A DNA stretch of 24,972 bases from a virus, in the IMG/VR virus record IMGVR_UViG_3300042406_000517, positions 1 to 24,972 of that record; one strand, written 5' to 3'. Shown here piece by piece: positions 4,149 through 22,541 of this stretch. The translations under genes and the position numbers were made by a program. The notes below the pieces were generated by a model. That model was not told the origin of the DNA, did not search any database, and saw nothing but the letters and a program-made list of their open reading frames with translations. Numbering within the stretch: position 1 is the first letter of the stretch; every line of letters begins with the position of its first letter.

Positions 4149-4412
4149 ATGATTGTTAAACCTCTTAAAGATAAGGTACTGATTGCTGAAGGTAAGAAAG
4201 ATACCACAACAGAGAGTGGTATTATTCTAGATGGCCGTGGTCTAGGTAATACAACACCTGGGATTATTGTAGCTGTAGGTCCTGATGTTAAAGAGGTTAA
4301 AGAGGGTGACACCGTCTACCTTGACTGGAGTAAATCATCTCCTGTTAACGTAGACGGTGCACAACGGGTTATGATTTCTGAGAAAGAAATTATTGCTGTA
4401 ATAGAAGTTTAA
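4149..4412 (+). CDS. groES: Co-chaperonin GroES
   Basis: An 87-aa GroES. It opens with the family strand (Val-Lys-Pro-Leu-x-Asp-Lys-Val-Leu), has a mobile loop with the hydrophobic Gly-Ile-Ile-Leu tripeptide for GroEL binding (about residues 24-27), then Pro-Gly-x-Ile-x-Ala-Val-Gly-Pro and Val-Lys-Glu-Gly-Asp-x-Val. It is slightly shorter than E. coli GroES (97 aa) but looks complete. It would form the heptameric lid on host GroEL and may retune the chaperonin for phage capsid or other proteins, as T4 gp31 does; unlike gp31 its sequence is plainly GroES-like. An AAAAAGGAATT ribosome site precedes it. Confidence 0.93.
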   Translation: MIVKPLKDKVLIAEGKKDTTTESGIILDGRGLGNTTPGIIVAVGPDVKEVKEGDTVYLDWSKSSPVNVDGAQRVMISEKEIIAVIEV

Positions 4413-5015: not shown

Positions 5016-5594
5016 TTATTCTGCAGGTGGAGTTTCAAATATTAAATTACGTAAACCATATTCATAATCTTTAAGTATTTCTAGCATAAGATTACAAACC
5101 TTTACTCTATGTTGAAAAGTAATTAGTTCTTGTCTTCTTTGCTGGATTTGATTAATGACAAAGCTATTTAATAAATTTTCACCTTCGGTTTTTATTCGTA
5201 ACTTCTTAGAAACCTTTTCAAGATTAACAATATACCTTTCTGTAACTCCTATGTCCTTAAATACCAATTCAAGCATAGTTCTAGTTTCCATTTCAGCAAT
5301 TAAAATTAAATCATCTTGATCAACATTAAAGCTAGGTACAACGTGTAAAAGTATTTGAACTATATTTGCAACAGCTTCATCTTTAGCATTTGATGTAGTA
5401 GTTTCCCCGGTAATGTCATATTGTTTTCTTCTAACAGGATCACTTAATATTTCGTACGCTAATTTAATGCTCTTGAATATCTCTTCATCACCACCTTTAT
5501 CGGGGTGATACATTTGTGCTAAAGTTCTATATCGTTGTCTAATAGTTTCTAAAGAAGCATCAACAGGTACGTCTAATTCGGTGTAGGGGTTCAT
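5016..5594 (-). CDS. J-domain (DnaJ-like) protein
   Basis: A 192-aa protein on the minus strand. Residues about 3-62 form a J domain with the Hsp70-stimulating His30-Pro31-Asp32 motif, followed by Lys-Gly-Gly and the helix ending Tyr-Glu-Ile-Leu-Ser-Asp. No Gly/Phe region, zinc domain or client-binding barrel follows. Instead there is a helical, charged C-terminal region (about 75-192) I do not recognise. It should recruit and stimulate host DnaK on a phage-chosen client. It is the only convincing minus-strand gene, set between tRNA-Arg and tRNA-Leu with 1 nt separating its stop from tRNA-Arg, and is markedly AT-rich. This suggests separate acquisition and timing. Confidence 0.9.
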   Translation of the reverse strand: MNPYTELDVPVDASLETIRQRYRTLAQMYHPDKGGDEEIFKSIKLAYEILSDPVRRKQYDITGETTTSNAKDEAVANIVQILLHVVPSFNVDQDDLILIAEMETRTMLELVFKDIGVTERYIVNLEKVSKKLRIKTEGENLLNSFVINQIQQRRQELITFQHRVKVCNLMLEILKDYEYGLRNLIFETPPAE

Positions 5595-5624: not shown

Positions 5625-5707
5625 GCGGGTGTGGTGAAATAGGTAGACACAAGAGACTTAAAATCTCTCGCTTCGGCATGCTGGTTCGATTCCGGTCACC
5701 CGCACCA
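5625..5707 (+). tRNA. tRNA-Leu (TAA)
   Basis: The acceptor stem GCGGGTG/CACCCGC and encoded CCA are clear. The anticodon arm is AGAGA-CTTAAAA-TCTCT with anticodon TAA. A variable arm, CGCTTCGGCAT, is present, and the T loop is TTCGATT. It sits on the plus strand 30 nt from the start of the divergently transcribed J-domain gene. Confidence 0.93.
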
Positions 5708-5717
5708 TTTATTGTTG

Positions 5718-5725
5718 TATAAATA
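5718..5725 (+). promoter_or_regulatory. Candidate T4-type late promoter TATAAATA
   Basis: An exact match to the T4 late -10 element, 60 nt before the first glycan-island gene. A transcript from it would begin inside or next to the terminator hairpin, so it may be chance in AT-rich DNA. Confidence 0.25.
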
Positions 5726-5726
5726 A

Positions 5727-5752
5727 CCCGTCCCCAGTGGCGGTTTTTCTTT
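5727..5752 (+). terminator. Probable rho-independent terminator after tRNA cluster
   Basis: CCGTC (5728-5732) pairs with GGCGG (5739-5743, one T-G) over a six-nt loop and is followed by TTTTT CTTT. It would end the tRNA transcript before the glycan island. Confidence 0.6.
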
Positions 5753-5785: not shown

Positions 5786-6451
5786 ATGAAAGTTGAGTTT
5801 AATTCGTTACATTGGAATAACGTTGATAAGGATATGCTATCGGCACATCAACGTGTTATGGACCATTTTAGTATTCCGATGAATTATGATAACCGTGATG
5901 GTCATAATCACGGTATGTGGATGCAATGGGTAATCAATAACTCGTCAAGTGACGTTATTGTGTTTATGGAGCCCGATTGTATTCCTCTTAATAAGAACTA
6001 CTTAGAGTATATCAAGTATGCAAATCGTAATGAGACATTTGTTGGTATTGCTCAAGTCTCAAACCACATTCCCCCCAAGTCTCATATTTACGCTGCACCT
6101 GCCTTCTATGCAATCTCTAAGAAAGCATATGACAAGCTAGGCCGGCCCTCGTTTACTGAAACACGCCGATCAGATACAGCTGAAGAGATATGCTACATGG
6201 CAGAAGATAGGGGTATGAAGTATCGTGCACTAATGCCGACTTACTTTGAAAAGCCGTCCTCTGAGGGTATCTGGCCTTTAAGCAATCTTGGTTATTATGG
6301 TATTGGTACAGTGTTCGATAATTCGATATACCATCTATATCAATCCAGAATGGCAGAGAATATTGAGATGTTTGTTAAGCGTTGCGATGAAGTAACTAAA
6401 GACGAATTTACAACTGAGTTATTTACTTCTGCTACTACATTTAAATTATGA
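5786..6451 (+). CDS. Putative GT-A type glycosyltransferase
   Basis: A 221-aa soluble protein. The N-terminal half carries an Asp-Gly-His-Asn-His-Gly stretch and a strand ending Val-Phe-Met-Glu-Pro-Asp64-Cys-Ile-Pro. The latter looks like the acidic metal and nucleotide-sugar site of GT-A folds, although it is not a textbook DxD. Acceptor-side features include a Tyr-Ala-Ala-Pro-Ala-Phe-Tyr block (about 109-115). It is first in the island, with a good ribosome site, and overlaps the GT-B gene by ATGA. Assignment to glycosyltransferases rests on this site and the context; sugar and acceptor are unknown. Confidence 0.6.
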   Translation: MKVEFNSLHWNNVDKDMLSAHQRVMDHFSIPMNYDNRDGHNHGMWMQWVINNSSSDVIVFMEPDCIPLNKNYLEYIKYANRNETFVGIAQVSNHIPPKSHIYAAPAFYAISKKAYDKLGRPSFTETRRSDTAEEICYMAEDRGMKYRALMPTYFEKPSSEGIWPLSNLGYYGIGTVFDNSIYHLYQSRMAENIEMFVKRCDEVTKDEFTTELFTSATTFKL

Positions 6452-7395
6452 AAATATTATTTCACGCTAATACAATTAACTACAGAGGTACTACTGTAGC
6501 CATTACTGATTATGCAAGATATAATCAAGAGATCCTTGGCAACGAGAGTGTTATTACATACTGTAAAACAAATGGCATTGAAAAAGACATGGGTAATGAG
6601 CAAGCTGTTATCGATGAGCTTAAAAAAGAGTTTGAAGTTGTAGGTTACCGAGCTGGTGACTTAGAAAGGAAGATTGATGATCTTCATATTGACTTAGCTT
6701 ATTTTATTAACTCAGGTCAAAAAGAATCTATACCAACTAATTGTAAGACTGCAGTACACGCAGTATTCCAGTTCAATCAACCACATGGTGACCGGTACGC
6801 ATACATCAGCGATTGGTTATCACAAAAGATGTCTGGTGGTGAAATTCCTTTCGTACCTCATATTGTGCAATTACCTGATACAACAGAAAATTACCGTAGT
6901 GCTTTTAACATTAGAGAAGATCAAATTGTTATTGGTCGTATTGGTGGTTACTATACATTTGATATTCCGTTTGTAAAAGAATATATTAAACGTTTGGTTA
7001 CAGATAATGATGCATTCATATTCCTTTTTGCGGGTACAGAACCTTTTATTTCTCATCCTAATGTTCGGTTTATAAACGAGTTCCATAACCCGTTAAAGAA
7101 GGCTAAGTTTATTAATACCTGCGATGCTATGTTGCATGCAAGAGATAGGGGTGAGAGTTTCGGACTATCAATTGCAGAATTCTTATCTTTAAATAAACCG
7201 GTCCTTGCATGGAATGGTGGTCATGATTTAAATCATTTAGATATGTTAAAAGATAGCGGGTTGTTATATAATGATGCTAATGATTTAAATTACCTACTGC
7301 ATAACTTACCGGACTTTAAAGAAGACTGGACCAAGCGGGTTGAGCAGTATAAACCTATACCTGTTATGAATAAATTTAAAGAGGTGTTTATATGA
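6448..7395 (+). CDS. GT-B glycosyltransferase (GT4-like)
   Basis: A 315-aa GT-B type protein. The first strand and loop (Lys-Ile-Leu-Phe-His-Ala-Asn) begin the N-terminal Rossmann domain. The C-terminal donor domain has Arg-Gly-Glu-Ser-Phe-Gly-Leu-Ser-Ile-Ala-Glu-Phe (about residues 232-243), the family 4 nucleotide-sugar site with its Glu pair. It then has Asn-Lys-Pro-Val-Leu-Ala-Trp-Asn-Gly-Gly. It would transfer a sugar from an NDP-sugar with retention. At 315 aa it is shorter than many GT4 enzymes but both domains appear present. ATGA junctions join it to genes on both sides. Confidence 0.82.
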   Translation: MKILFHANTINYRGTTVAITDYARYNQEILGNESVITYCKTNGIEKDMGNEQAVIDELKKEFEVVGYRAGDLERKIDDLHIDLAYFINSGQKESIPTNCKTAVHAVFQFNQPHGDRYAYISDWLSQKMSGGEIPFVPHIVQLPDTTENYRSAFNIREDQIVIGRIGGYYTFDIPFVKEYIKRLVTDNDAFIFLFAGTEPFISHPNVRFINEFHNPLKKAKFINTCDAMLHARDRGESFGLSIAEFLSLNKPVLAWNGGHDLNHLDMLKDSGLLYNDANDLNYLLHNLPDFKEDWTKRVEQYKPIPVMNKFKEVFI

Positions 7396-7856
7396 CACAA
7401 ATAGTTTTTAAACGAGTTACAACTCCTGCTGAGGCTGAGAATCTTCGCGTAGTGCGTAATCAATGCCGTGAATATATGACCCGTAGTACAGATTACATTA
7501 CACCTGAACAGCAGGAAGAATGGTTCAAGACAGCATTTCGCAAGTATGATCTTTACATTGCGTATGCTATCGAGCATGGTGTATGTATTGTTGATGCTGG
7601 TTTTGGAGTTGTTCATAAAAATGAAAATGAATTTCTTCTAACTGGTGGTCTAGTACCCGAGTACAGGGATAAGGGCTTAGGTAAAATTATTTTTAAGTTC
7701 CTTGTCGATCAATGTCATAAGTCATTACCTATTCGGCTTGAAGTATTAAAAAGTAATACACGAGCATTCAAAACATACGAAGGCCTGAACTTTAAAGTAA
7801 CAGGCGAAACAGATAAAATATTTTACATGGAGTATCAATATGATTCCGTTATTTAA
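7392..7856 (+). CDS. GNAT-family acetyltransferase
   Basis: A 154-aa GNAT protein. The acetyl-CoA pyrophosphate loop is Arg92-Asp-Lys-Gly-Leu-Gly97-Lys, preceded by strand beta4 with Val-Pro-Glu-Tyr. Motif B follows as Ser-Asn-Thr-Arg-Ala-Phe-Lys-x-Tyr-Glu-Gly-Leu-Asn-Phe (about 121-134). It lies directly before and overlaps (17 nt) a DegT aminotransferase gene. That pairing is typical of enzymes that N-acetylate an amino group newly placed on an NDP-sugar (WecD/FdtC type logic). I infer an amino-sugar substrate; protein or other amines are possible. Confidence 0.85.
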   Translation: MTQIVFKRVTTPAEAENLRVVRNQCREYMTRSTDYITPEQQEEWFKTAFRKYDLYIAYAIEHGVCIVDAGFGVVHKNENEFLLTGGLVPEYRDKGLGKIIFKFLVDQCHKSLPIRLEVLKSNTRAFKTYEGLNFKVTGETDKIFYMEYQYDSVI

Positions 7857-8919
7857 AGTTGCGATGTCGGATCATGCAGCAGAGAAAGTTTCCGCTGTAC
7901 TAACTTCAGGCTTTATTGGTCAGGGGCCTATTGTAGAAGAGTTTGAAGATAAGCTTTGGCATATATTAAAATCTAAGACAAGACCTGTCACTGTAAATTC
8001 GTGTACTGCGGCTATTGATCTTTCTTTAGATCTGTTAAATATTAACCCCGGTGACGAAGTTATTGCTACACCTCAGACTTGTTTTGCATCTAACGTAGGT
8101 GCAATTCATCGAGGCGCTAGACTGCGCTGGGCTGATATTGATCCCTTGACAGGACTCATTGATCCTGTATCTGTTGGTAAACTAGTTAACGAAAAAACTA
8201 AAGCCATACTTGCTGTTAACTGGGCAGGTAAGATTTGTGATTATAAATCACTTAAAGCATTTGGTGTACCTGTAATCGAGGATGCTGCTCACACGTGGGA
8301 TGTTTTTGGTATAGGTGATAATGAGCGAGGAGATTATATTTGTTATAGTTTCCAGGCTATTAAGTTCCTTACTACCGGTGACGGTGGAATCTTAGTTTGC
8401 CCACCTGAAATGGAAAACGAAGCTCGTACACTTCGCTGGTATGGTTTAGATAGAACAAAGAACGAATCGTTCCGTTGTACTCAAGACATTACAAAAGTTG
8501 GCTTTAAGTATCACATGAATGATATTAATGCTGCAATTGGTTTATCCAATATAGGTAAAGCAGAATATTCAGTTGCTTGTAGTAGAAGGAATTCTAAAGA
8601 GTATATTACTAAAGTTAATAACCCTTTTCTTACTTTACCTGATTGGGACGAAACCTGTTCATACTGGTTATTCAGTATGCATGTAAAAGCAGGTTTAAAA
8701 GATCACTTTACTAAGTACTTGGAAAATAATGGTGTTGCAGTTAGCCCGGTTCACTTCCGTAATGATATGTACAGCAGTATATCTCAATTCCGTGAGGGTG
8801 ATCTACCAGGTGTGACATCGTTTACTGAAACACAGATCTGTATTCCTAACGGGTGGTGGTTGACTATGTTTGAGCAAGAGCATATAATCAAAGTATTGAA
8901 TGAGTATACTGGAATATGA
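7840..8919 (+). CDS. DegT/DnrJ/EryC1/StrS sugar aminotransferase
   Basis: A 359-aa PLP enzyme that converts a keto group of an NDP-sugar to an amine. Visible features are the Gly-Phe-Ile-Gly-Gln-Gly-Pro entry motif (24-30), Asn53-Ser-Cys-Thr-Ala-Ala phosphate-binding loop, Glu147-Asp148-Ala-Ala-His151 for the PLP ring nitrogen, and the Schiff-base lysine Lys175 in Ser-Phe-Gln-Ala-Ile-Lys-x-Leu-Thr-Thr-Gly-Asp-Gly-Gly. The length is near the family norm (about 370). It overlaps the GNAT gene upstream and makes an ATGA junction with the epimerase-like gene downstream. Together they suggest an N-acetylated amino-deoxysugar product. Confidence 0.92.
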   Translation: MIPLFKVAMSDHAAEKVSAVLTSGFIGQGPIVEEFEDKLWHILKSKTRPVTVNSCTAAIDLSLDLLNINPGDEVIATPQTCFASNVGAIHRGARLRWADIDPLTGLIDPVSVGKLVNEKTKAILAVNWAGKICDYKSLKAFGVPVIEDAAHTWDVFGIGDNERGDYICYSFQAIKFLTTGDGGILVCPPEMENEARTLRWYGLDRTKNESFRCTQDITKVGFKYHMNDINAAIGLSNIGKAEYSVACSRRNSKEYITKVNNPFLTLPDWDETCSYWLFSMHVKAGLKDHFTKYLENNGVAVSPVHFRNDMYSSISQFREGDLPGVTSFTETQICIPNGWWLTMFEQEHIIKVLNEYTGI

Positions 8920-9800
8920 AAATTTTAATTATTGGTGGTGAAGGGTACATTGGTACCTATCTTAATAACCATCTAAATAGTCAAGGCTTAAATGTTCAAA
9001 CCTTTGGTAATAGGAAACAAGATTATAATATTTTAGGAAGAGAATTCCTTAGTCAGTTCTCTCACATTGTATTATTAGCTGGTCATTCAAGTGTTCAGTG
9101 TTGTAATGGCCCGTTAGATTCTCCTTGGAAAAACAACGTACGCAATTTTAAAAATCTAGTTGAAAAAACGGATAATAAGCAAACTATTATATACGCTAGT
9201 AGTGCATCGGTGTATGGTGCTAATGATGTTAAACGTCTGTATATTGAAAATGAAATTAGTGTTGATTTTGTAAACAATTACGATCTTACAAAAGTAAGTT
9301 TAGACTTATTGGCAATGAAGTATATGTCTGAAGGTAGAAAGCTAATAGGTCTTCGATTCGGTACTGTCAATGGTAATTCACCAGTCATTCGAAGAGATCT
9401 AATGATTAACTCTATGGTGTATTCAGCTATTACAGAAGGCCATATTACTATTACAAATAAGCATATTAAACGCCCTATACTTTCTGTAAGAGATCTATCA
9501 AGGGCTGTTGAATCAATAATTATACAAAATACACATTCAAATATATTTAATCTTGCAACTTTTAATTCAACAGTTGAAGATATTTGTAAGATAGTTAATG
9601 AGCATACAAAAGTAGATATTATTGATAACGGAAATACATCAGGTACATATAATTTTGCTATTGATAATACTAAATTTAAAGTGCTGAATAAGTTTACATA
9701 TGAAGATAACATTCACTCGGTTGTTGAGAGTGTAATTGATTGTTATAAAAACAGAAACCCTAAAGTAGTAATTAGAAACGAATACTTCCAATATGATTGA
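8916..9800 (+). CDS. NAD-dependent sugar epimerase/dehydratase (extended SDR)
   Basis: A 294-aa extended SDR. The NAD(P)-binding Gly-Gly-Glu-Gly-Tyr-Ile-Gly (7-13) is at the N-terminus. The catalytic set is Ser95/Ser96 in Tyr-Ala-Ser-Ser-Ala-Ser-Val-Tyr-Gly and Tyr122-x3-Lys126. Such enzymes epimerise, dehydrate or reduce NDP-sugars; the exact reaction cannot be told. It could make the keto-sugar used by the adjacent aminotransferase or adjust a later product. It overlaps the next gene by 8 nt. Confidence 0.85.
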   Translation: MKILIIGGEGYIGTYLNNHLNSQGLNVQTFGNRKQDYNILGREFLSQFSHIVLLAGHSSVQCCNGPLDSPWKNNVRNFKNLVEKTDNKQTIIYASSASVYGANDVKRLYIENEISVDFVNNYDLTKVSLDLLAMKYMSEGRKLIGLRFGTVNGNSPVIRRDLMINSMVYSAITEGHITITNKHIKRPILSVRDLSRAVESIIIQNTHSNIFNLATFNSTVEDICKIVNEHTKVDIIDNGNTSGTYNFAIDNTKFKVLNKFTYEDNIHSVVESVIDCYKNRNPKVVIRNEYFQYD

Positions 9801-11700
9801 TTACATTGTTGTTATCTATAAAAATTATGATTTGCTTGAATTGCAAATAGAAAATTTTAAACGTCTTTTTTCACATAAAGATTATAATTTAATAGTTGTA
9901 GATAATACACCGGATAGCGAAAAGCAGATTACTGATGCATGCTTGGATCCTATTATAGATCACTTTGTAAAATGTGAAAGTGTACCAACATTCGATGGTT
10001 TATCCCACGGTAAGGCTATTAATGAAGGCTTAAAATACGTTAAGTCCGATATTGTTGGTATTATAGATTCAGACTATTTTATTCTTAATAGTAATATTCA
10101 CGATTACGTACATAAAAAGTTTAAAGCGGGATACAAGGCTATTGGAACCGAATACAATGATGGTAAAGATACAAAGAGCTGGGTAGAAAAGAACCCTGAA
10201 GCTTTTAAAGACATTCCTGTTTGCTTTGGTGCATATTATGATGCAGAGCTAGCTAAATCACATTCCTGGATTATTACAGAACAAGAAGTAAACGAAAATC
10301 GAGCTACAGGTTATGTTGAAGTAGGATATCGAATTCGTAAACATATTTTTGAAAATAATATCCTATCAGAAAACTGGAAGACAGATGCCACTAGCTATGG
10401 TAACTGTTATTTTAAAAACAGCGATGGTGAGATGATGGGTGTTCATTATGTCGCGGGGTCGCATAGACGCTGGAGTGATGTATCTAAGTCTGAGTTAAGA
10501 GATATTCTTTCTTTGGATTACAGTAGCTACAAAAGGTTAACAAATTGTCTTTGCTGCGGTGGTACTAACTTAGAAGATATTTTAAACCTTAACAACCAAC
10601 CACTGGCTAATAGTTATCTTGAAGCCGTTGATGAAGAAGAGTATAGTTACCCGTTAGGTATTAACTATTGTATGGATTGTACGCATATTCAGCTAACACA
10701 TGTCGTAGACCCTGATAAACTATTCAAACACTATCTCTACGTAAGTGGTACAACAAAGACGTTAAGGGATTACTTTGATTGGTTTGTAGACTTTACTAGT
10801 AATTACACAGAAGGTAAAAAGGTACTTGATATAGCGTGTAACGATGGTACCCAACTTGACTCTTATAAAGAGAAAGGTTTTATTACATACGGTATTGATC
10901 CAGCTGAAAACTTATACCCTGAAAGCTCTAAGAAGCATTCTATTGTATGTGATTACTTTACATCTGCTAAACAGTTTGATACAAAGTTTGATATCATTAC
11001 CGCTCAAAACGTATTTGCTCATAACTCATACCCTAAGGAGTTTTTAGTGTCCTGTAGAGAGGCGTTGAGCGATAAGGGGTGTATCTTTATTCAGACCTCA
11101 CAGGCTGATATGGTAGTCAACAATCAGTTTGATACTATATACCATGAGCATATTTCTTTCTTTAGTGTTAAATCTTTTTGTGCACTAGCTCATCGGGCAG
11201 GGTTAAATGTTATTGATATAACTCGTACCCCTATTCATGGTACAAGTTTTGTATTTGTCTTATCTAAGGATCTACCAGATCAATCAGAAAAGTTTATTGC
11301 AGAAGAACAAACACTTACATATCGTACTATGCTTAAGTATGCAAACAACTGCATACGTATTGCTAAAGAAACAAAAGCAATGGTTGAGGCATTGCAAAAG
11401 CAGGGCATTAAGGTTATCGGGTACGGGGCCGCTGCTAAGGGTAATACATTCCTTAACTTTTCAAAATTTAACTTAGATTATATTGTAGATGATAATCCTT
11501 TGAAGCATAACTTGTTTAGCCCCGGTACAAGAATTCCTATTCTGCCCACTGACTCTTTGTTTAGTGAAGAGGGGGAAATTTGCGTTGTACCTTTAGCCTG
11601 GAACTTCTTTGATGAGATTAAATCTAAAGTTCTTTCCCGTAAATCGGATAAAATTAACTTTTTAAAATACTTCCCTGAAGTGGTATGCACAAAACTATAA
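9793..11700 (+). CDS. Fusion: GT-A glycosyltransferase plus sugar C-methyltransferase
   Basis: A 635-aa two-part protein. Residues about 1-245 look like a GT-A glycosyltransferase: Val-Val-Asp-Asn (35-38) and the metal-binding Asp92-Ser-Asp94. Residues about 250-635 form a complete NDP-sugar C-methyltransferase of the TylCIII/NovU type. That part has a zinc-binding domain (Cys252-x2-Cys255, Cys293-x2-Cys296), the SAM loop Val-Leu-Asp-Ile-Ala-Cys-Asn-Asp-Gly (344-352), the family block Tyr450-His-Glu-His, and a C-terminal Rossmann-like domain opening with Gly-Tyr-Gly-Ala-Ala-Ala-Lys-Gly (543-550). It would add a methyl branch to a keto-sugar and transfer sugar in one chain. There is no frameshift or stop between the halves. 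Confidence 0.85.
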   Translation: MIDYIVVIYKNYDLLELQIENFKRLFSHKDYNLIVVDNTPDSEKQITDACLDPIIDHFVKCESVPTFDGLSHGKAINEGLKYVKSDIVGIIDSDYFILNSNIHDYVHKKFKAGYKAIGTEYNDGKDTKSWVEKNPEAFKDIPVCFGAYYDAELAKSHSWIITEQEVNENRATGYVEVGYRIRKHIFENNILSENWKTDATSYGNCYFKNSDGEMMGVHYVAGSHRRWSDVSKSELRDILSLDYSSYKRLTNCLCCGGTNLEDILNLNNQPLANSYLEAVDEEEYSYPLGINYCMDCTHIQLTHVVDPDKLFKHYLYVSGTTKTLRDYFDWFVDFTSNYTEGKKVLDIACNDGTQLDSYKEKGFITYGIDPAENLYPESSKKHSIVCDYFTSAKQFDTKFDIITAQNVFAHNSYPKEFLVSCREALSDKGCIFIQTSQADMVVNNQFDTIYHEHISFFSVKSFCALAHRAGLNVIDITRTPIHGTSFVFVLSKDLPDQSEKFIAEEQTLTYRTMLKYANNCIRIAKETKAMVEALQKQGIKVIGYGAAAKGNTFLNFSKFNLDYIVDDNPLKHNLFSPGTRIPILPTDSLFSEEGEICVVPLAWNFFDEIKSKVLSRKSDKINFLKYFPEVVCTKL

Positions 11701-12401
11701 TTTCACATTTCTTTAATGAAGAGTACTTACTTCCCTGGTGGTTAGAACATCATAAAAAATACTTTGACCATGGTATCATGATTAATTATGCCTCTACAGA
11801 TAACTCGGTTAGTATTATTAAACAAACTTGCCCAGAATGGACTATTATAAATTCTAGAAATCATTTCTTTGATGCTAAGCTTATAGATGATGAAGTCATG
11901 GATATTGAAAGCACGGTAGCGGGCTGGAAAACATGTCTTAATACAACAGAATTTTTAGTTGGAGATTATTCTATAATGAATGAGGTTGCAGACCAAGAGA
12001 TTATTGCTCCGTGTTTTATTATGGTTGATAGTCAACCTGACAACCAACCTACTTACAGTAAATCTTTAATTGAACAAAAGCATTGCGGTATACATTACCA
12101 TGGTAGGGACCCTTTAGCTAGACGTCCAAGATTAATCCATAATAAAAACAGAGTCACGTATCCACTAGGTAGACATTACCCAGATCATAATACTGAAAAG
12201 CTCAAGGTACTGTGGTATGGTTGGTCACCTTTTAATAATAAAACACTAGACCGTAAATTACAAATACAAGATAGGATACCTGAGGCAGACAAGGCAAGAG
12301 GGTTCGGTTCACAACATATTGCTGATGAGCATAAGTTGAACGCAATCTTCTATAAAGATTACTTTCCGTTTGCTGTAGATCTTAAATCAGAATATAAATA
12401 A
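11685..12401 (+). CDS. Glycosyltransferase, Glyco_tranf_2_4/GT92-like
   Basis: A 238-aa protein whose opening, His-Phe-Phe-Asn-Glu-Glu-Tyr-Leu-Leu-Pro-Trp-Trp-x-x-His-His, is the hallmark of the small family-2-like glycosyltransferases (Pfam Glyco_tranf_2_4; GT92-like). It is followed by the usual strand and Ser-Thr-Asp-Asn-Ser motif (about 37-41). The rest has the His-Tyr-His-Gly and Pro-Arg-Leu-Ile blocks common in these proteins. It starts inside the end of the fusion gene (16-nt overlap), so the two are translationally coupled. Donor and acceptor are unknown. Confidence 0.75.
   Translation: MHKTIISHFFNEEYLLPWWLEHHKKYFDHGIMINYASTDNSVSIIKQTCPEWTIINSRNHFFDAKLIDDEVMDIESTVAGWKTCLNTTEFLVGDYSIMNEVADQEIIAPCFIMVDSQPDNQPTYSKSLIEQKHCGIHYHGRDPLARRPRLIHNKNRVTYPLGRHYPDHNTEKLKVLWYGWSPFNNKTLDRKLQIQDRIPEADKARGFGSQHIADEHKLNAIFYKDYFPFAVDLKSEYK
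12393..12400 (+). promoter_or_regulatory. Candidate T4-type late promoter TATAAATA
   Basis: An exact TATAAATA at the end of the preceding gene, overlapping its stop codon, 22 nt before the ATG at 12422. The following 20-nt gap is one of the few real gaps in the island, which gives it slight support. Confidence 0.35.
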
Positions 12402-12421
12402 AAAAAACTTAAAAGGTGATT

Positions 12422-13090
12422 ATGAACATAGCATTAATTTTTGCAGGTATATCTTTCGGTCATAAATCAGAGAGAGATTTCAATCATTGTTTTCCTAATA
12501 TAGATCGTAACTTAATTCAACCGCTTCGGGAAGAACATTCTGTTTACAATTACGTTATGACGTATAATAATGATAGAATGGATGAAGTTACCAAACTCCT
12601 TAACCCTAAAAGACTTGCTTCTATACCTTTTGAAGGTAGTAAGCAAAACCCTACTCGTGCCGCTGCTATCGATCTTACCGGTAATGATGATCATATTGAC
12701 TTCTATATTATGTCGAGGTTTGACGTCCACTACAATAAAAATTTAAAAGACTTTAACTTAGACTGGGATAAATTTAATTTTGTTTCCCGTGAGGGTAATG
12801 GGTATTGGGAGAGTCAACAATTTGTAGGTGATACATTTTATGCCTGGCCGAAACGTCTTCATAAACAAGTTGTACAAGGGTTTAATGAATTAGCAAAGTT
12901 CGATCCTAATCACATGCATAACTTTTACTCTATTCTTGCTCCTATCATCGGTCAAGAAAATATTCACTTCATGAGTGAGGAACCGCAATTAAGTGGCCAC
13001 TTGCTAACAAGTATTTGTACAAGTGACTACACAGGTCGCTTACGTGGTAAGATACCAATTAACGAAGAAATCTTAGCTAGATTTCCATAA
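12422..13090 (+). CDS. Hypothetical protein in glycan island, possible glycosyltransferase
   Basis: A 222-aa soluble protein. It has an Asn-Ile-Ala-Leu-Ile-Phe-Ala-Gly-Ile opening strand and a Tyr-Ile-Met-Ser-Arg-Phe-Asp-Val block (about 97-104). Arg-Phe-Asp in this position recalls the acidic nucleotide-sugar site of some GT-A proteins. I choose ATG 12422 with AAAAGGTG upstream rather than the in-frame GTG at 12416. It follows a short gap that may hold a promoter. I do not recognise a specific family; a glycosyltransferase-like role is inferred from context and the motif. Confidence 0.55.
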   Translation: MNIALIFAGISFGHKSERDFNHCFPNIDRNLIQPLREEHSVYNYVMTYNNDRMDEVTKLLNPKRLASIPFEGSKQNPTRAAAIDLTGNDDHIDFYIMSRFDVHYNKNLKDFNLDWDKFNFVSREGNGYWESQQFVGDTFYAWPKRLHKQVVQGFNELAKFDPNHMHNFYSILAPIIGQENIHFMSEEPQLSGHLLTSICTSDYTGRLRGKIPINEEILARFP

Positions 13091-13101
13091 TAAGGATTTA
13101 A

Positions 13102-13827
13102 ATGATTAATGTAGTTATTCCAATGGCCGGTAGAGGTCAGCGATTTGTAGAAAGTGGTTACGATAAACCCAAACCAATGATTGATGTGGTTGGTGTTCCT
13201 ATGATCAAACGAGTCATAGATTCACTTACGTCCAAACACAGTGAATGTAATTTTATTTTTATTGCATTGAAAGAACATTTAGATAACGGACTTCAGGAAT
13301 TTCTTGAACAACAAGGTACAATTATTCCGTTAGATATTGTTACTGAAGGTGCTGCATGTACCACTTTGATGGCCCTACATTACATTAATAATTTAGAGCC
13401 TTTAGTTATTGCAAACTGTGATCAATATCTTGAATGGGATTTTGATAGTTTTTTAGAGCATTCTAAAGACCGCGATGGTTCACTGGTTGTGTTTAATTCA
13501 ACCAACCCCCATCATAGTTATGCTAAGGTAAAAAAAGGCCAAGTTATAGAAGTAGCTGAAAAGAAAGTTATTTCCGATAAAGCATGCGCAGGTATCTATT
13601 ACTTCCGACATGGTAATGAATATATCGAGAGTGTAGTTATGATGATTGCTAAGAATATAAGAACTAATAACGAGTTTTATATTGCGCCTGCATACAATGA
13701 ATTAATTGCAGGGTCAGGCAATGTTTCGGTATATGAAGTTGATGTTAACAAAAAGCATATGCTTGGTACACCGTATGAGTTAGAAATATTTTTAGATAAA
13801 GTTGAAAACGGGGATGTTGTATTATGA
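13102..13827 (+). CDS. Sugar-phosphate nucleotidyltransferase
   Basis: A 241-aa protein opening with Val-Ile-Pro-Met-Ala-Gly-Arg-Gly-Gln-Arg-Phe and Asp-Lys-Pro-Lys-Pro-Met, the signature of NDP-sugar pyrophosphorylases (NTP_transferase). The first part binds the nucleotide and the Lys-Pro-Lys-Pro region (22-25) orients the phosphates. Asn-Cys-Asp-Gln (about 110-113) is the metal-site strand. It would activate a sugar 1-phosphate (or similar) to the NDP-sugar used by other island enzymes. It overlaps the SDR gene by ATGA, so the two probably act in sequence. A ribosome site, AAGGA, is present in the 11-nt gap. Confidence 0.85.
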   Translation: MINVVIPMAGRGQRFVESGYDKPKPMIDVVGVPMIKRVIDSLTSKHSECNFIFIALKEHLDNGLQEFLEQQGTIIPLDIVTEGAACTTLMALHYINNLEPLVIANCDQYLEWDFDSFLEHSKDRDGSLVVFNSTNPHHSYAKVKKGQVIEVAEKKVISDKACAGIYYFRHGNEYIESVVMMIAKNIRTNNEFYIAPAYNELIAGSGNVSVYEVDVNKKHMLGTPYELEIFLDKVENGDVVL

Positions 13828-14480
13828 AAGTATTAATTTTTGGTAAGAGTGATATAGGTGAAGGTATTAAACAGCTATATCCAGATACGGTAAACGTACC
13901 TAAAGAAGAATGCGATGTTAGAGATTATAATGCTATCTGTGCAACACTAGAGAAATATAAACCTGATGTAATTGTTAACTGCGCTGGAATTTCTCATGTA
14001 CAAGTGGTTAAAGATTCAAATATTAAACACTGGCAGGAAGAGATTGAAGTTAACTTGTTAGGAAGTTATTTAATTGCACGAGCATCTATTAACTGGAATG
14101 TTAAGACTATGATCTTTATTGCATCAGTTGCTGGTATGTACGGTAAACCAGAACATAGTGGTTACTCTGCATCTAAGTCTGGCGTCATCTCATTCGTACA
14201 GTCATTAGGTTTTGAGGGCTATAAAGCATATTCTGTTAGCCCTGGGCGTGTAGATACTAAGATGAGAGAAAACGATTACCCTGGTGAAGATAAGCGTACC
14301 AGACTTTCTACGCTACAAGTTGCAGAAGTGGTAAAGGAATGTATTGACGGTAATTACGAGCCAGGTGATAATATCGTTATTCGCAAAAGAGGTTTTACGA
14401 AGCTTAAGCGCGTTGATAAAGGTCAACCCTGGAAGAAGTACCTTAACGTACAACCACTGGGTGCACCTAAGCTAATCTAA
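13824..14480 (+). CDS. Short-chain dehydrogenase/reductase
   Basis: A 218-aa classical SDR. The catalytic residues are Asn52-Cys-Ala-Gly55, Ser101 and Tyr114-x3-Lys118, with Pro-Gly after Ser-Val-Ser. The N-terminal cofactor loop is Gly-Lys-Ser-Asp-Ile-Gly-Glu-Gly-Ile, a shortened form of the usual Thr-Gly-x3-Gly-x-Gly. It reduces or oxidises a carbonyl with NAD(P). Coupling to the nucleotidyltransferase gene suggests the substrate is the activated sugar (or alditol) made by that enzyme. It is followed by a TAATG junction. Confidence 0.85.
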   Translation: MKVLIFGKSDIGEGIKQLYPDTVNVPKEECDVRDYNAICATLEKYKPDVIVNCAGISHVQVVKDSNIKHWQEEIEVNLLGSYLIARASINWNVKTMIFIASVAGMYGKPEHSGYSASKSGVISFVQSLGFEGYKAYSVSPGRVDTKMRENDYPGEDKRTRLSTLQVAEVVKECIDGNYEPGDNIVIRKRGFTKLKRVDKGQPWKKYLNVQPLGAPKLI

Positions 14481-14920
14481 TGAAAATTATTTGTCATCGT
14501 GGTAATACATTTGGACCTGATCCAGATAATGAAAATAAACCCGAAGTAATTGATTATTGTATTAATCAAGGATACGATATAGAAATTGACCTCTGGGTCA
14601 ATAATAACGATCTGTATCTCGGACATGATGAGCCGACCTACCCTATTCATATGGATTATCTTGTATCAATGAAGACAAGATTGTGGATCCATTGTAAGAA
14701 TCTCCAAGCAAGCGCGGAGTTGTTTAGGTTCAGAGGCTTTAATTATTTTATGCATGATAAGGATGATTACACCCTAACATCTCATGGATATGTTTGGACA
14801 TATCCAAAGCTACAGAACGTTTTTTCTTATAATCAAATTCTACTGGATTTTTACCCTAATGTTAATTTTGAAAAATATAAGCTATTAGGCATTCATGGGG
14901 TATGTGTTGACTATGTCTAA
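14480..14920 (+). CDS. GDPD/PI-PLC-like phosphodiesterase fold protein
   Basis: A 146-aa protein with the start of a glycerophosphodiester phosphodiesterase barrel: His6-Arg7-Gly-Asn, Glu35-Ile-Asp37 and Gly-His49-Asp-Glu. These correspond to the two catalytic His and the metal-binding Glu/Asp of the family. A Leu-Trp-Ile-His-Cys-Lys-Asn strand follows. At 146 aa it is well short of the usual 230-250, so it may be a minimal barrel. Proteins of this kind occur in bacterial polysaccharide loci. It may hydrolyse a phosphodiester in a glycan or lipid, but this is inference. Confidence 0.65.
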   Translation: MKIICHRGNTFGPDPDNENKPEVIDYCINQGYDIEIDLWVNNNDLYLGHDEPTYPIHMDYLVSMKTRLWIHCKNLQASAELFRFRGFNYFMHDKDDYTLTSHGYVWTYPKLQNVFSYNQILLDFYPNVNFEKYKLLGIHGVCVDYV

Positions 14921-15653
14921 AATTTCTTTATGCTGTCCAGTTTATACCATGAGCGGTACCCGAGCTGAAAAGTTTCTAGTTGAATATCTCTCTCATTTAA
15001 TCTTTCAAACGTTTAAAGACTTTGAAGTTATTATTTCAGATCAAAGCACGTTTGATAACTTAAGATCTATAGTAGATACCTTTGACCACGTTCTTAATAT
15101 TCGATATGTACGAAATACCAGTGAGAAAAAGAACGCTGCTAACAATGTCAATAATGCTGTACGGCATGCCACAGGAGACATTGTAAAATTACTTTACATG
15201 GATGACTTCTTTGTAGATCCATTTGCGTTACAAAAGATAAGTGATGCATTTGATAATAAACCAGAAGGTAAATGGTTTATATCTGGGTTTACTCATTGCA
15301 ATGAAGATAGGTCTCAGTACTTTGATACTAGACTTCCTTGGTATGGTAACAAGCACGTGAATGGAGACAACACAACCGGTAATCCATCTAACTATGCCGT
15401 AAGACGAGACTGCGCAATCGAGATGGATGATGACTTATTGTGGATTGTAGATGGTGAATACTTCTACCGGTCTTATTACTATCATGGTGATCCTATAATG
15501 ATAGATGATGTTTTGGTTTGCTTTAGAGAACATGGTTCTTCTGCATTCCGGGACCCTAAGTTTCAAGAACTCGATGCAAAAGAAAGACAGTACTGTATCG
15601 ACAAATATAATGGTCCCATGCCAACGAAAGAAGTAGCACTGAGCTGGAAATGA
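14913..15653 (+). CDS. Family 2 glycosyltransferase
   Basis: A 246-aa GT-A protein. It opens with Ile-Ser-Leu-Cys-Cys-Pro-Val-Tyr, has Val-Ile-Ile-Ser-Asp-Gln-Ser as second strand and Leu-Tyr-Met-Asp-Asp-Asp-Phe-Phe type acidic motif (Met-Asp-Asp, about residue 95) for Mn and NDP-sugar. A later Trp-Ile-Val-Asp-Gly-Glu supplies the likely catalytic base region. I start it at 14913, overlapping the previous gene by 8 nt, because the GT2 strand begins directly there; 14895 is the alternative. It is the last island gene, 31 nt before the sliding clamp gene. Confidence 0.82.
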   Translation: MSKISLCCPVYTMSGTRAEKFLVEYLSHLIFQTFKDFEVIISDQSTFDNLRSIVDTFDHVLNIRYVRNTSEKKNAANNVNNAVRHATGDIVKLLYMDDFFVDPFALQKISDAFDNKPEGKWFISGFTHCNEDRSQYFDTRLPWYGNKHVNGDNTTGNPSNYAVRRDCAIEMDDDLLWIVDGEYFYRSYYYHGDPIMIDDVLVCFREHGSSAFRDPKFQELDAKERQYCIDKYNGPMPTKEVALSWK

Positions 15654-15684: not shown

Positions 15685-16356
15685 ATGAAAATTGGAAGTG
15701 AAACTATTGCGCTGCTGAAGAACTTTGCATCGATCAATACTAATATTGTATTTAAAGAGGGTGATGCAGTTAGTACTATCTCTAATGCAAAGAATATCTT
15801 TGCTAAAGCTACTATCAAAGAAACTATTCCTAAAGAGTTTGCAATCTATGATTTGAACTCTTTACTGGCTATGTGGACGTTGACGGATAGCCAGGATATT
15901 GAGTTTGGAGATAAATGTATCGGTATTACTAGCCCGGCTGGTAAGTTTGAATACTACTATTCTAATCCTGAGATTGTAACTGCTGCTCCTACTACTGAGA
16001 TTGAGCATATCGATGTTTATAAGTTTAAAGTAACGGCTGAAGATATTCAAATGATTATGAAAGCGGCCGCTATCACCGGAGCGCCTACTGTATCGGTAAC
16101 TTGTAAGAACCAAGCAGTTGTATTATCGGTAAGTGATCGTAAAAATGATACTGCATCTAACTTTAGGAAGTCTCTTGGTACATCTTTTGATGACTTTGAT
16201 GTGTTTATTGCAGTTGAGAATCTAAAAGTTATTCCTGATGCATATGACATTACGGTTGCTAAGACCCCTAATGGTAAAGCTAAGTTCCTTCATTTCAAGC
16301 ATGAATCTAGACAACTACAATATTGGATTGCAGCAGAACCTGGTTCGGTAGTTTGA
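15685..16356 (+). CDS. 45: DNA polymerase sliding clamp (T4 gp45-like)
   Basis: A 223-aa sliding clamp, close to T4 gp45 (228 aa). It would form a trimeric ring that tethers the phage DNA polymerase and also serves late transcription. The C-terminal part with Val-Ala/Ile-Glu-Asn-Leu-Lys-Val-Ile-Pro-x-x-Tyr-Asp is the family signature (about 173-186). Identification is reinforced by the clamp loader and RegA genes that follow in T4 order. It comes 9 nt before the gp44 gene. Confidence 0.92.
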   Translation: MKIGSETIALLKNFASINTNIVFKEGDAVSTISNAKNIFAKATIKETIPKEFAIYDLNSLLAMWTLTDSQDIEFGDKCIGITSPAGKFEYYYSNPEIVTAAPTTEIEHIDVYKFKVTAEDIQMIMKAAAITGAPTVSVTCKNQAVVLSVSDRKNDTASNFRKSLGTSFDDFDVFIAVENLKVIPDAYDITVAKTPNGKAKFLHFKHESRQLQYWIAAEPGSVV

Positions 16357-16365
16357 GGGTAGCAT

Positions 16366-17298
16366 ATGAGTGAGCATTTTATCTGGGTTGAAAAATATCG
16401 CCCTAGGAAAATTGACGATTGTATCTTACCTGAGTCTCAGAAAGAGTACTTTAAGCAGATGGTTGCTAAAGGTGAGATTCAGAATATGTTGTTATGTGGT
16501 TCCGCAGGTACTGGTAAGACTACGGTAGCTAGGGCCCTGTGTGAGGAACTTCAGACCGACTATATGATCATTAACGGATCAGAAGAGTCTGGTATTGATG
16601 TATTGCGTACTAAGATTAAGCAATTTGCCTCTACGGTATCGTTTACTGGTAATACCAAGGTAGTTATCCTTGACGAAGCTGATTACTTAAACCCTAACTC
16701 TACTCAGCCTGCATTGCGCGGGTTCATCGAAGAGTTTGCAAGCAATTGTCGCTTTATTCTAACTTGTAATTTTAAGAATCGTATTATACCACCTTTGCAT
16801 TCAAGGTGTGCAGTAATTGAGTTTAAGATTCCTAACGCTGATAAGCCAACTATTGCAGCTAACTTCTTTAAGCGTGTATGTAGTATACTAGAGCAAGAAG
16901 CTATACCGTTTGATCAAAAGGTTATCGTTAAGATTGTGCAGAAGCACTTCCCTGACTTTCGTAGAACGTTAAACGAGCTTCAGCGTTATTCTCAATCTGG
17001 TTCTATTGATGAAGGTATCTTAGTTAGTGTCAGCGAAGCTAATATGAAAGAGCTTATTGATGCTATTAAAGAAAAAGACTGGAAGAAAATGCGCGCATGG
17101 GTTGTTAATAACTTAGATAACGACCCTGTATCCTTGTTCCGTAAGATCTATGATACGTTTGTACCGTTAACTAATCAAGTACCGCAACTGGTTCTAACTA
17201 TTGCTGACTATCAGTATAAGTCTGCGTTTGTTGCAGATCAAGAGATTAACTTGGTTGCATGTCTGACTGAAATTATGGCGTCTGTGGAGTTAAAATGA
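16366..17298 (+). CDS. 44: Clamp loader ATPase subunit (T4 gp44-like)
   Basis: A 310-aa AAA+ ATPase, similar in length to T4 gp44 (319). It opens with Trp-Val-Glu-Lys-Tyr-Arg-Pro-Arg, then Walker A Gly45-Ser-Ala-Gly-Thr-Gly-Lys51-Thr, Walker B Asp103-Glu-Ala-Asp106 and the arginine-finger Ser146-Arg-Cys148. Four copies with one gp62 open and load the clamp onto primer-template DNA. It ends in an ATGA junction with a small ORF. Confidence 0.96.
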   Translation: MSEHFIWVEKYRPRKIDDCILPESQKEYFKQMVAKGEIQNMLLCGSAGTGKTTVARALCEELQTDYMIINGSEESGIDVLRTKIKQFASTVSFTGNTKVVILDEADYLNPNSTQPALRGFIEEFASNCRFILTCNFKNRIIPPLHSRCAVIEFKIPNADKPTIAANFFKRVCSILEQEAIPFDQKVIVKIVQKHFPDFRRTLNELQRYSQSGSIDEGILVSVSEANMKELIDAIKEKDWKKMRAWVVNNLDNDPVSLFRKIYDTFVPLTNQVPQLVLTIADYQYKSAFVADQEINLVACLTEIMASVELK

Positions 17299-18787: not shown

Positions 18788-19009
18788 ATGTTCTACGCAA
18801 ACATGGCTATCGATTCAATTCAAGACGCCAAAATTACCTTCCTCAAACAAACTGTTCAGGAAGAATCCCTTAAAAAACCTTTAGTTGATTTTGTCGAGGC
18901 ACAGCGTGTCTTTACAAAGCAAATTGCTAAGTCTGCTAGTGATGTAATTACACTGACAGCTCAAACATTTGCAAATGCAATTACAGGTACTACTAAAAAG
19001 GGAGCTTAA
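18788..19009 (+). CDS. Small helical, phasin-like protein, 73 aa
   Basis: A 73-aa helical protein with no Cys or Trp. The central part (about residues 32-62), with Phe-Val-Glu-Ala-Gln, Lys-Gln-Ile-Ala-Lys-Ser-Ala-Ser-Asp-Val-Ile-Thr-Leu, recalls phasin-type amphipathic helices that coat granules. That likeness is weak and by eye only. It has a strong AGGAG ribosome site and is separated from the hsp20 gene by one base. Being made with Hsp20 behind a structured leader, it may act in stress or protein aggregation. Confidence 0.7.
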   Translation: MFYANMAIDSIQDAKITFLKQTVQEESLKKPLVDFVEAQRVFTKQIAKSASDVITLTAQTFANAITGTTKKGA

Positions 19010-19010
19010 T

Positions 19011-19520
19011 ATGACATTATTGACGACTTTTGGTCCAGCATTCAAGGACATGGATAAATTTTTTGTTGGCTTTGATGACCAGTTTACTCGTCTTGCTAAA
19101 ATGCATGATGACATGACAAAAAATATTCCCAACTATCCCCCATACAACATTAAAAAGACAGGTGACAATACTTACGTTGTTGAAGTAGCTGTTGCTGGGT
19201 TTGCCAAACAAGATATCGAAATCGAACTTGCTGATGGTAAGATGTTAATTAAGGGTAACGTTCAGTCAAACGAAGCCGAGGAAAATTTCCTATTCAAGGG
19301 AATCGCAAATCGTGCCTTCACTCGTACTTTTGCACTCGATGATCAAGTCGAAGTACAAAATGCCGAAATGTTCAATGGTATGCTTAAGGTCTTCCTAGAG
19401 CGTATTATTCCTGAGCATAAAAAGCCAAAGAAGATCGAAGTTAAAGATACTTCAGAAGCTAAACCTAAAAAAACTAAACCCCAACTACTTACAGAAGACC
19501 CAGAAGGTCGCGACCTGTAA
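19011..19520 (+). CDS. Small heat shock protein Hsp20 (IbpA-like)
   Basis: A 169-aa small heat shock protein. The alpha-crystallin domain spans about residues 42-142, starting with Tyr-Pro-Pro-Tyr-Asn-Ile as in IbpA/IbpB. It contains the Ala-Phe-Thr-Arg-x-Phe-Ala-Leu block and Gly-Met-Leu-Lys-Val, and ends with Ile-Pro-Glu-x-Lys-Lys-Pro-Lys-Lys-Ile. A charged tail follows. It should form oligomers that hold unfolding proteins for refolding by DnaK. I choose the ATG at 19011 (GGGAG upstream) rather than the in-frame start at 18969, which lies inside the preceding gene. Hsp20 genes are common in T4-like aquatic phages. A terminator follows. Confidence 0.93.
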   Translation: MTLLTTFGPAFKDMDKFFVGFDDQFTRLAKMHDDMTKNIPNYPPYNIKKTGDNTYVVEVAVAGFAKQDIEIELADGKMLIKGNVQSNEAEENFLFKGIANRAFTRTFALDDQVEVQNAEMFNGMLKVFLERIIPEHKKPKKIEVKDTSEAKPKKTKPQLLTEDPEGRDL

Positions 19521-21223: not shown

Positions 21224-21815
21224 GAAGATTTTCTTTTGGCGTGAGATTGATTACGATGAGCCACTCATCGATAAGCTAAGTAATATACTTCAGCCTTTCT
21301 GCCAAGGTATACAAAAAGTACTAGATACTGTTCATCCTAAAATCGATTATGTTAAGATCGATAAATGGGATACCTGGAATATGGATACTTCTCTTTCCCA
21401 GATCATCCTGCCCATGCTAAAACAGCTTCAAGCAACTAAGCATGGGGCACCTTCCGTTGACGATGGGGATGTACCTGAAGGTTTGAATCTTCGTTCTACA
21501 GAAGCATCTGCAAAAGAGAACGAATGGGATACAGACGAAAACTGGCATAAGCGCTGGGACTGGGTACTAGCAGAAATGATTTGGACCTTTGAGCAATTGA
21601 CCTCTGAATGGGATAAACAATACCATACAGGTGAATTTGATAGAGTAACTACACCATGTGCATGGGATGAGAACGGTAAGCCTACTATGTACAGTTGGGA
21701 TAAGGGTCCAAACGATACTAGTGAGTTTGATAGTGAAGGTTATATGAAGCATGACAAACGTATTTCAAACGGTCTAGTTTTATTTGGTAAATACTACAGA
21801 GGGCTTTGGGATTGA
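21165..21815 (+). CDS. Conserved T4-like phage protein, 216 aa
   Basis: A 216-aa protein I recall as a conserved, uncharacterised family in T4-like and cyanophages. Landmarks are Lys-Ile-Asp-Lys-Trp-Asp-Thr-Trp-Asn-Met-Asp (about 66-76), Ile-Ile-Leu-Pro-Met-Leu-Lys-Gln-Leu (81-89), Lys-His-Gly-Ala-Pro-x-Val-Asp-Asp-x-Asp-Val-Pro (93-105) and Arg-Trp-Asp-Trp-Val-Leu-x-Glu-Met-Ile-Trp-x-Phe-Glu-Gln (about 130-144). The conserved Asp and Trp suggest a metal or nucleic-acid role, but no function is established. The long 59-nt overlap with the upstream gene is unusual for the window. Confidence 0.75.
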   Translation: MKVYLSKYRYHWISPYKILEKIFFWREIDYDEPLIDKLSNILQPFCQGIQKVLDTVHPKIDYVKIDKWDTWNMDTSLSQIILPMLKQLQATKHGAPSVDDGDVPEGLNLRSTEASAKENEWDTDENWHKRWDWVLAEMIWTFEQLTSEWDKQYHTGEFDRVTTPCAWDENGKPTMYSWDKGPNDTSEFDSEGYMKHDKRISNGLVLFGKYYRGLWD

Positions 21816-22540: not shown

Positions 22541-22541
22541 A

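Follow-up and report, generated by a model that had tools for sequence, protein, structure and literature searches.

A glycan operon beside the clamp genes of a T4-like phage: a conserved eight-gene core with an optional cassette, predicted to make a C-methylated amino sugar

T4-like cyanophages and pelagimyophages carry clusters of sugar genes that are often located near tRNA genes (PMC2984593, PMC3037559, PMC7029224), and a study of 2010 did not decide whether such lipopolysaccharide (LPS) clusters have a function or are merely stuffer DNA (PMC3037559). We describe here a comparable gene island in a 24,972-base fragment of an aquatic T4-like phage from IMG/VR (record IMGVR_UViG_3300042406_000517; hereafter referred to as the window), in which gp45, gp44, gp62 (at 17757) and regA (at 18175) are recognised by Pfam. 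The island occupies positions 5786-15653 and, as in the published clusters, linked nucleotide-sugar and transferase genes of a T4-like phage are found in it close to tRNA genes. A first-pass annotation of this DNA had delimited the island correctly and had described its genes as tightly packed, which they are; the 13 genes it counted are 12 in the open reading frame (ORF) listing. Its statement that known phage systems give no clue to the product was too strong, since comparable clusters have been published and dTDP-sugar chemistry can be deduced from the RmlB and RmlC genes linked to the island genes in relatives.

Layout, conservation and expression signals of the island

The island consists of 12 consecutive plus-strand ORFs (designated w1 to w12), all of them intact, whose neighbours overlap by 1-26 nt; the sole gaps are 14 nt before 12416 and 11 nt before 13102. 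Its left edge had been described as a tRNA gene and a terminator, and we found both on the plus strand: tRNA-Leu(taa), detected by ARAGORN at 5625..5707, and a terminator-like hairpin followed by TTTTTCTTTG at 5728..5743. A tRNA-Leu(taa) gene also precedes the island in L004, L005, L007, L010, and L026, and the hairpin sequence recurs in L004, L005, and L007. On the right, the island is bounded by the genes for the gp45 sliding clamp and the gp44 clamp loader (15685..17298, plus strand, with gp44 starting at 16366; PF02916/PF09116 and Gp44_lid). Among isolates, Methylophilales phage Melnitz (63%) and Pelagibacter phage Mosig (59%) have the nearest clamp loaders. The island itself had no megablast match in isolate phages.

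To compare gene order, we collected viral contigs encoding relatives of w6 and mapped the window proteins onto their ORFs. The order w1-w7, w12, gp45, gp44 recurs in L004, L005, L007, L010/L011, L024, L026, L027, and L029, while L006, L008, and L009 are contigs cut off at their left end. The island is consequently not one set, as had been assumed, but a stable eight-gene core (w1-w7 and w12) plus an optional four-gene cassette (w8-w11). The same order is present in about a dozen viral contigs. Melnitz lacks the island at this place: about 1.3 kb between its DUF932 gene and gp45 hold only Hsp20 and small genes; Mosig likewise has no sugar genes there. The tRNA side of the island is variable, but the core, which phages have long kept beside gp45, is not loose tRNA cargo. 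In L014, L016, L018, L021, and L028, core genes are located downstream of gp41 instead, and the module can therefore sit at different places.

The island genes are under strong purifying selection. Between the window and L004-L007, the ratio of nonsynonymous to synonymous substitution rates (dN/dS) is 0.02-0.15 for the island genes with computable dS, values that are comparable to, or somewhat higher than, those of gp45 and gp44 (0.01-0.07). Since the gene order is common to about a dozen viral contigs and dN/dS is this low, the island is more than a chance assembly; it is a working, selected glycan operon. In particular pairs (L004 and L005 against the window), w2, w7, w10, w11, and w12 show far more silent-site divergence than their neighbours, and such jumps between adjacent genes suggest that transferase alleles have been replaced by recombination. 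A role as a defence system was not supported, as PADLOC returned only one weak methyltransferase match.

The octamer TATAAATA, which resembles a T4 late promoter, occurs just twice in the window, both times on the coding strand and at the starts of the two modules: at 5718..5725, 68 nt before w1, and at 12393..12400, 23 nt before the annotated start of w8. Two near-genome-length relatives that carry the core, G001 (165 kb) and G002 (159 kb), have this octamer in front of gp18, gp22, and gp23. The w8 copy is kept in L004-L007 and L009 despite an indel that shifts the reading frame of the w7 end; because the frame in which w7 ends differs among them, the octamer appears to be conserved as DNA rather than as protein. 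The w1 copy is kept in L004 and L005 and with one mismatch in L007; it is absent from L010, L024, and L026-L029, and we rejected it as an ancestral promoter. None of 500 first-order Markov shuffles placed the octamer in both 100-nt upstream zones, a result that is supportive but yields no formal probability, as the zones were chosen after the sites had been seen. The octamer at 5718 lies immediately 5' of the terminator hairpin (together 5718-5743). In the lineage of the window, late transcription would start just after TATAAATA at 5718 and again after 12393; a start about 6-8 nt past the octamer would fall within the hairpin's left arm or downstream of it, so that late transcripts could escape the terminator, and the hairpin would stop read-through from the tRNA cluster.

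Predicted sugar pathway and transferases of the core

Pfam matches over the cut-off bear out a content of a DegT-type aminotransferase, a GNAT acetyltransferase, two short-chain dehydrogenases/reductases (SDRs) and a nucleotidyltransferase, as first annotated. The DegT/DnrJ/EryC1/StrS sugar aminotransferase w4 (7840..8919) matches PF01041 with 198.9 bits against a cut-off of 19.8, and its best solved relatives are 4zwv/4xau (2e-60) and CalS13 (1e-46). It is preceded by the GNAT protein w3 (7392..7856; PF00583), for which we predict N-acetylation, and followed by w5 (8916..9800; PF01370, best solved match 6vo6), an extended SDR of the sugar-nucleotide reductase/epimerase type. SSxSVYG and YDxTK-type residues are invariant over 20 relatives of w5; because this active site has no dehydratase DE pair, we rejected w5 as the missing 4,6-dehydratase.

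The central protein of the core, w6 (9793..11700), is a fusion of a GT2 glycosyltransferase (residues ~1-235; PF00535) with a sugar C-methyltransferase (MT; residues ~250-630). Its MT half scores over the cut-off against PF08421 (Methyltransf_13, 64 bits), PF13489 (Methyltransf_23, 69 bits), and PF08484 (Methyltransf_14, 92.9 bits), and it aligns over nearly its full length, YxEH region included, with MtmC, TcaB9, and a 5t64-type sugar 3-C-methyltransferase. C14, C17, C55, and C58 as well as Y212, H213, E214, and H215 (YHEH) are invariant in 13 relatives, so that both the zinc-binding cysteine quartet and the Y-x-E-H motif of NovU/TcaB9-type sugar C-methyltransferases are present. Among the isolate and other phage records of the collection searched, we found no DegT protein above 41% identity and no w6 relative above 32%.

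Which sugar these enzymes act upon is indicated by gene linkage in relatives. In about 37 other viral loci, the MT gene is preceded, at a distance of 1-4 genes, by one for an RmlB-like dTDP-glucose 4,6-dehydratase, and in L018 an RmlC gene, over its curated cut-off, follows w12. Three loci (L046, L056, L058) share the order RmlB, MT, hexapeptide acetyltransferase, DegT, which is a short operon for the same chemistry as that of the island. Because RmlB and RmlC genes are linked in relatives, the precursor is most likely dTDP-4-keto-6-deoxyglucose. The first-pass annotation had called the sugar set almost complete, which it is not: the window, a fragment, contains no RmlA-type or RmlB-type gene, and profile searches of G001 and G002 found no RmlC, no RmlB-like gene, and no PF00483 nucleotidyltransferase (RmlA). 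A 317-aa SDR of G001 was considered as RmlB and rejected as GalE-like. Since RmlA and RmlB were not found in G001 and G002, the host probably supplies dTDP-4-keto-6-deoxyglucose.

We propose that host RmlA and RmlB would make this precursor and that the MT half of w6 would methylate it beside the keto group, at C3 or possibly C5, a substrate assignment that follows the RmlB linkage. Subsequently, w4 would aminate C4 and w3 would N-acetylate the product to give dTDP-4-acetamido-C-methyl-4,6-dideoxyhexose, and w5 may act on the branched keto sugar as a reductase or epimerase, from which a second, neutral sugar could result. The earlier prediction of an N-acetylated, aminated and C-methylated deoxy sugar is sound. 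The C3 methyl and C4 amino positions would be those of known enzymes.

We count six transferase domains in the island (w1, w2, the N-terminal part of w6, w7, w8, and w12), in line with the four or more glycosyltransferases plus the fusion first annotated. Neither w1 (5786..6451; 221 aa) nor w8 (12416..13090) has a Pfam match, but their AlphaFold2 models, built together with relatives (A1, pLDDT 86, and A2, pLDDT 80, respectively), predict a GT-A glycosyltransferase fold for both: VIA-align gave Z values of about 10-12 for w1, which also has an (E/D)xDC motif, to several different GT-A enzymes, including viral A197 and the PBCV-1 capsid glycosyltransferase, and the Foldseek matches of w8 are mostly GT-A enzymes. 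The GT4-like w2 (6448..7395; 315 aa; PF00534, E 9e-4) and the GT2-like w7 (11685..12401; PF13704, Glyco_tranf_2_4, 1.5e-5, just below the cut-off) are likely glycosyltransferases whose Pfam scores fall below the cut-offs; w2 is 40% identical to a protein from a sugar-gene region of cyanophage S-SKS1. The last core gene, w12 (14895..15653), encodes a GT2 glycosyltransferase (PF00535, 2.6e-12). In none of the island proteins does the hydrophobicity of any 19-residue segment suffice for a membrane helix (the highest mean Kyte-Doolittle value is 1.49), and w1, w2, the GT2 part of w6, w7, and w12 would assemble the sugars in the cytosol.

To trace the methyltransferase, we placed 74 phage MTs and 72 cellular ones in a tree, built by a quick method, in which several branches are long and uncertain. 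The phage label changes 3 times on this tree, compared to 48 times in shuffles, so that phage MTs cluster strongly; by this measure, the enzyme is a long-standing resident of phages. The nearest cellular branches are found in SDR-MT-glycosyltransferase triads of Methylobacterium and Hyphomicrobium, whose third member is a w7-type gene. Nested inside the phage clade are RmlB-MT pairs from two Pelagibacteraceae single-cell genomes (L117 and L118), which may reflect phage-to-host transfer or co-sorted phage DNA. GT2 and MT are encoded together as one ORF in L004-L008, L010/L011, L024, and the window (L009 is cut short here); they form two adjacent ORFs, which overlap by at most 80 nt or lie almost end to end, in L012-L014, L016-L019, L021, L022, and L026-L029. 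As fused and split forms occupy alternating branches of the tree, fusion or fission has probably happened more than once.

The optional cassette

The cassette (12416-14920) is inserted into the core without a scar. It begins with w8, whose likely start is the ATG at 12422, preceded by AAGGTG, and continues with w9 (13102..13827), a 241-aa sugar-phosphate nucleotidyltransferase that scores over the cut-off of PF12804 (NTP_transf_3), matches phrog_3980 (2.9e-58), and has 4evw and 6-deoxy-mannoheptose pathway proteins as best solved matches. The classical SDR w10 (13824..14480; PF00106, adh_short) has FabG-type solved matches. The fourth protein, w11 (14480..14920; phrog_34507), is a 146-aa phage protein without a Pfam match that carries an HRG/ExD/GHD motif; H6, R7, G8, E35, D37, and H49 are kept at 91-100% in 85 sequences. 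It had first been described as GDPD-like, a name that profiles do not support: the HRG, ExD, and H residues are present, but the GDPD profile matched none of nine relatives, even at E<1, and profile searches against solved structures and Pfam returned no relative. L004-L009 and L027 carry the four genes, whereas L010, L011, L024, L026, and L029 lack them; in the latter, w7 directly adjoins or overlaps w12. The cassette is found in L027 but not in L026, its sister in the MT tree, and was therefore gained or lost more than once.

A scan for relatives of w11 yielded at least 585 confirmed stretches, and we inspected the neighbourhoods of the best 80 loci among them (L200-L279). In 69 of these 80, a w9-type nucleotidyltransferase gene is found no more than four genes away from the w11 relative; the genes in between vary and include methyltransferases, small proteins, a HAD protein, and an SDR. 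In most of these other loci the nucleotidyltransferase has 440-460 aa, as opposed to 241 aa in the window, and the examples read, L198:7341-8723, L232:2563-3933, and L237:3273-4655, have an N-terminal HAD phosphatase-like domain. The first of these belongs to the isolate S-CAM9, in which the pairing is found as well. These data suggest that w9 and w11 form a common phage sugar-phosphate activation unit; we met no description of it in the literature searched, in which no search was aimed at the pair itself.

In the proposed scheme, w9 would activate another sugar or polyol phosphate, w10 would reduce it, and w8 would transfer it, while w11 may act on a phosphodiester or related ester, a weak assignment. 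It appears to us evenly balanced whether the cassette serves a distinct product that has nothing to do with the C-methyl amino sugar, such as a polyol or heptose phosphate in activated form. Its all-or-none presence where both ends are visible, its own octamer, the occurrence of the w9-w11 pair without the core in most viral loci, and the HAD domain on w9-type proteins elsewhere favour a product of its own, but the cassette sits inside the core operon, flanked by two core transferases, and in L015 it directly follows the core. A separate product would be compatible with the pathway favoured for the core.

Acceptor of the glycan and comparison with known systems

Taken as a whole, the explanation that we favour, a pathway to a C-methylated, 4-aminated, N-acetylated 6-deoxyhexose together with cytosolic transferases, is rather probable. 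Several points weigh against it. w4, w5, and the RmlB-like neighbours fall below the NCBIfam equivalog cut-offs, so that substrate positions are assigned by analogy; for three RmlB-like neighbours scanned, TIGR01181 was the top NCBIfam model with 234-246 bits, yet below its curated cut-off. The window is a fragment, and RmlA and RmlB could sit elsewhere in the same genome; the w1 octamer is seen in close relatives only; and the ADP-heptose genes at 22446-24403 would equally fit an LPS-core-like target.

The acceptor would have to be reachable from the cytosol. Our narrow and tentative preference is for virion proteins, because the enzymes are soluble, the signals are of the late type, and Bac_transf and Wzy_C are missing from two relatives. 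Host surface-glycan precursors at the inner face of the membrane are a slightly less probable acceptor, and DNA is an unlikely one. More specifically, the phage may remodel the host surface, with the transferases adding sugars, on the cytosolic face, to intermediates of the LPS core or the O antigen and thereby blocking the adsorption of competing phages, which we find possible but somewhat doubtful. Such a role is the one usually proposed for phage LPS genes, among them those of P-SSM2 and pelagimyophages (PMC2984593, PMC7029224), and it would suit the GT2 and ADP-heptose genes at 21806-24403, the SDR-MT-glycosyltransferase triads in alphaproteobacterial chromosomes, and the swapping of w2, w7, and w12 alleles between near relatives. 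Against it, the late-type octamers suggest late expression, when exclusion would be less useful, and the combination of initiating transferase and polymerase that marks a Wzy-type surface polysaccharide operon is absent from the two near-genome-length relatives: Bac_transf (PF02397) and Wzy_C (PF04932) were not found in G001 and G002 with positive controls, flippases and ligases not having been searched separately. The ADP-heptose genes belong to a second sugar block at 21806-24774, which comprises a GT2 gene, an HldD-like epimerase, an HldE adenylyltransferase domain, an HldE kinase-like domain (254 aa) that is split into three stretches, and a cupin; L042, L043, L044, L049, and L072 have comparable sets of genes.

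Glycosylation of DNA against restriction is very improbable, even though phage transferases can glycosylate DNA (PMC7029224, PMC10611076) and the island adjoins replication genes. G001 and G002 contain no dCMP hydroxymethylase of the thymidylate-synthase fold (PF00303); a Tet_JBP search gave no match, its control being likewise silent. DNA-sugar systems are not known to comprise as many as six different transferases plus sugar synthesis. Non-functional stuffer DNA that fills the head, a possibility discussed for the LPS clusters of cyanophages (PMC3037559), would fit the variation of such clusters among phages and the plastic tRNA side but is hardly credible here, with every ORF intact, a selection test (dN/dS 0.02-0.15 against L004-L007) that contradicts it, and a core order beside gp45 kept over deep divergence. 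With twelve intact genes, purifying selection, a fixed core, and an optional cassette, the island makes the functional-versus-stuffer question testable.

Returning to virion proteins as the preferred acceptor, the most detailed version of this reading holds that the phage makes dTDP-4-acetamido-3-C-methyl-4,6-dideoxyhexose and, late in infection, attaches an oligosaccharide with this sugar to virion proteins, that swappable transferases and the plug-in cassette create antigenic variety of the particle, and that the widespread w9-w11 pair is a separate, undescribed phage sugar-activation unit; in all its parts together, this is unlikely. It nevertheless offers a chemically specific prediction, a C-methyl plus acetamido 6-deoxyhexose, and the w9-w11 pair, both genes of which are common in viral contigs, provides a second target.

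Other phage-borne genes of the window encode Cpn10 (4149-4412), a DnaJ-domain protein (5016-5594, minus strand, antisense inside the tRNA array), and Hsp20 (18969-19520). Between the island and DUF932, G002 carries minus-strand genes for a TonB-dependent receptor, a DUF1552 protein, and a di-haem cytochrome c peroxidase (L106:16045-18255, L106:18593-19807, L107:10697-11713), an unusual phage cargo.

Among described systems, the LPS clusters of cyanophages P-SSM2, S-SSM7, and S-SM2 (PMC2984593, PMC3037559) are alike in that genes for sugar synthesis and for transferases form large blocks close to tRNAs; the window differs from them by a fixed eight-gene core beside gp45, by amination plus C-methylation, and by a selection test that speaks against stuffer DNA. 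Pelagimyophages, which are related T4-like phages of streamlined aquatic bacteria, possess transferases and rfaE (PMC7029224). In an island of Synechococcus phage DSL-LC02 (L199), a 4,6-dehydratase, a C-methyltransferase homologue (28.5% identity), and several transferases are likewise encoded in one run, but its annotated route is that of GDP-mannose/fucose, no DegT or GNAT is annotated, and transferase and MT are unfused. MtmC, TcaB9, and 5t64-type sugar 3-C-methyltransferases, which belong to actinomycete antibiotic pathways, are homologous along nearly the whole MT half of w6, whereas the MT of the window is fused to a GT2 domain and phage-borne. N-acyl-kansosamine and sibirosamine are 4-amino-4,6-dideoxy-3-C-methylhexoses that occur as bacterial cell-wall lipid or antibiotic sugars, a class of hexoses to which the predicted island sugar would belong. 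While phage glycan clusters near tRNAs are already known, the fixed core beside gp45, the combination of amination with C-methylation, the glycosyltransferase-MT fusion, and the plug-in cassette are new.

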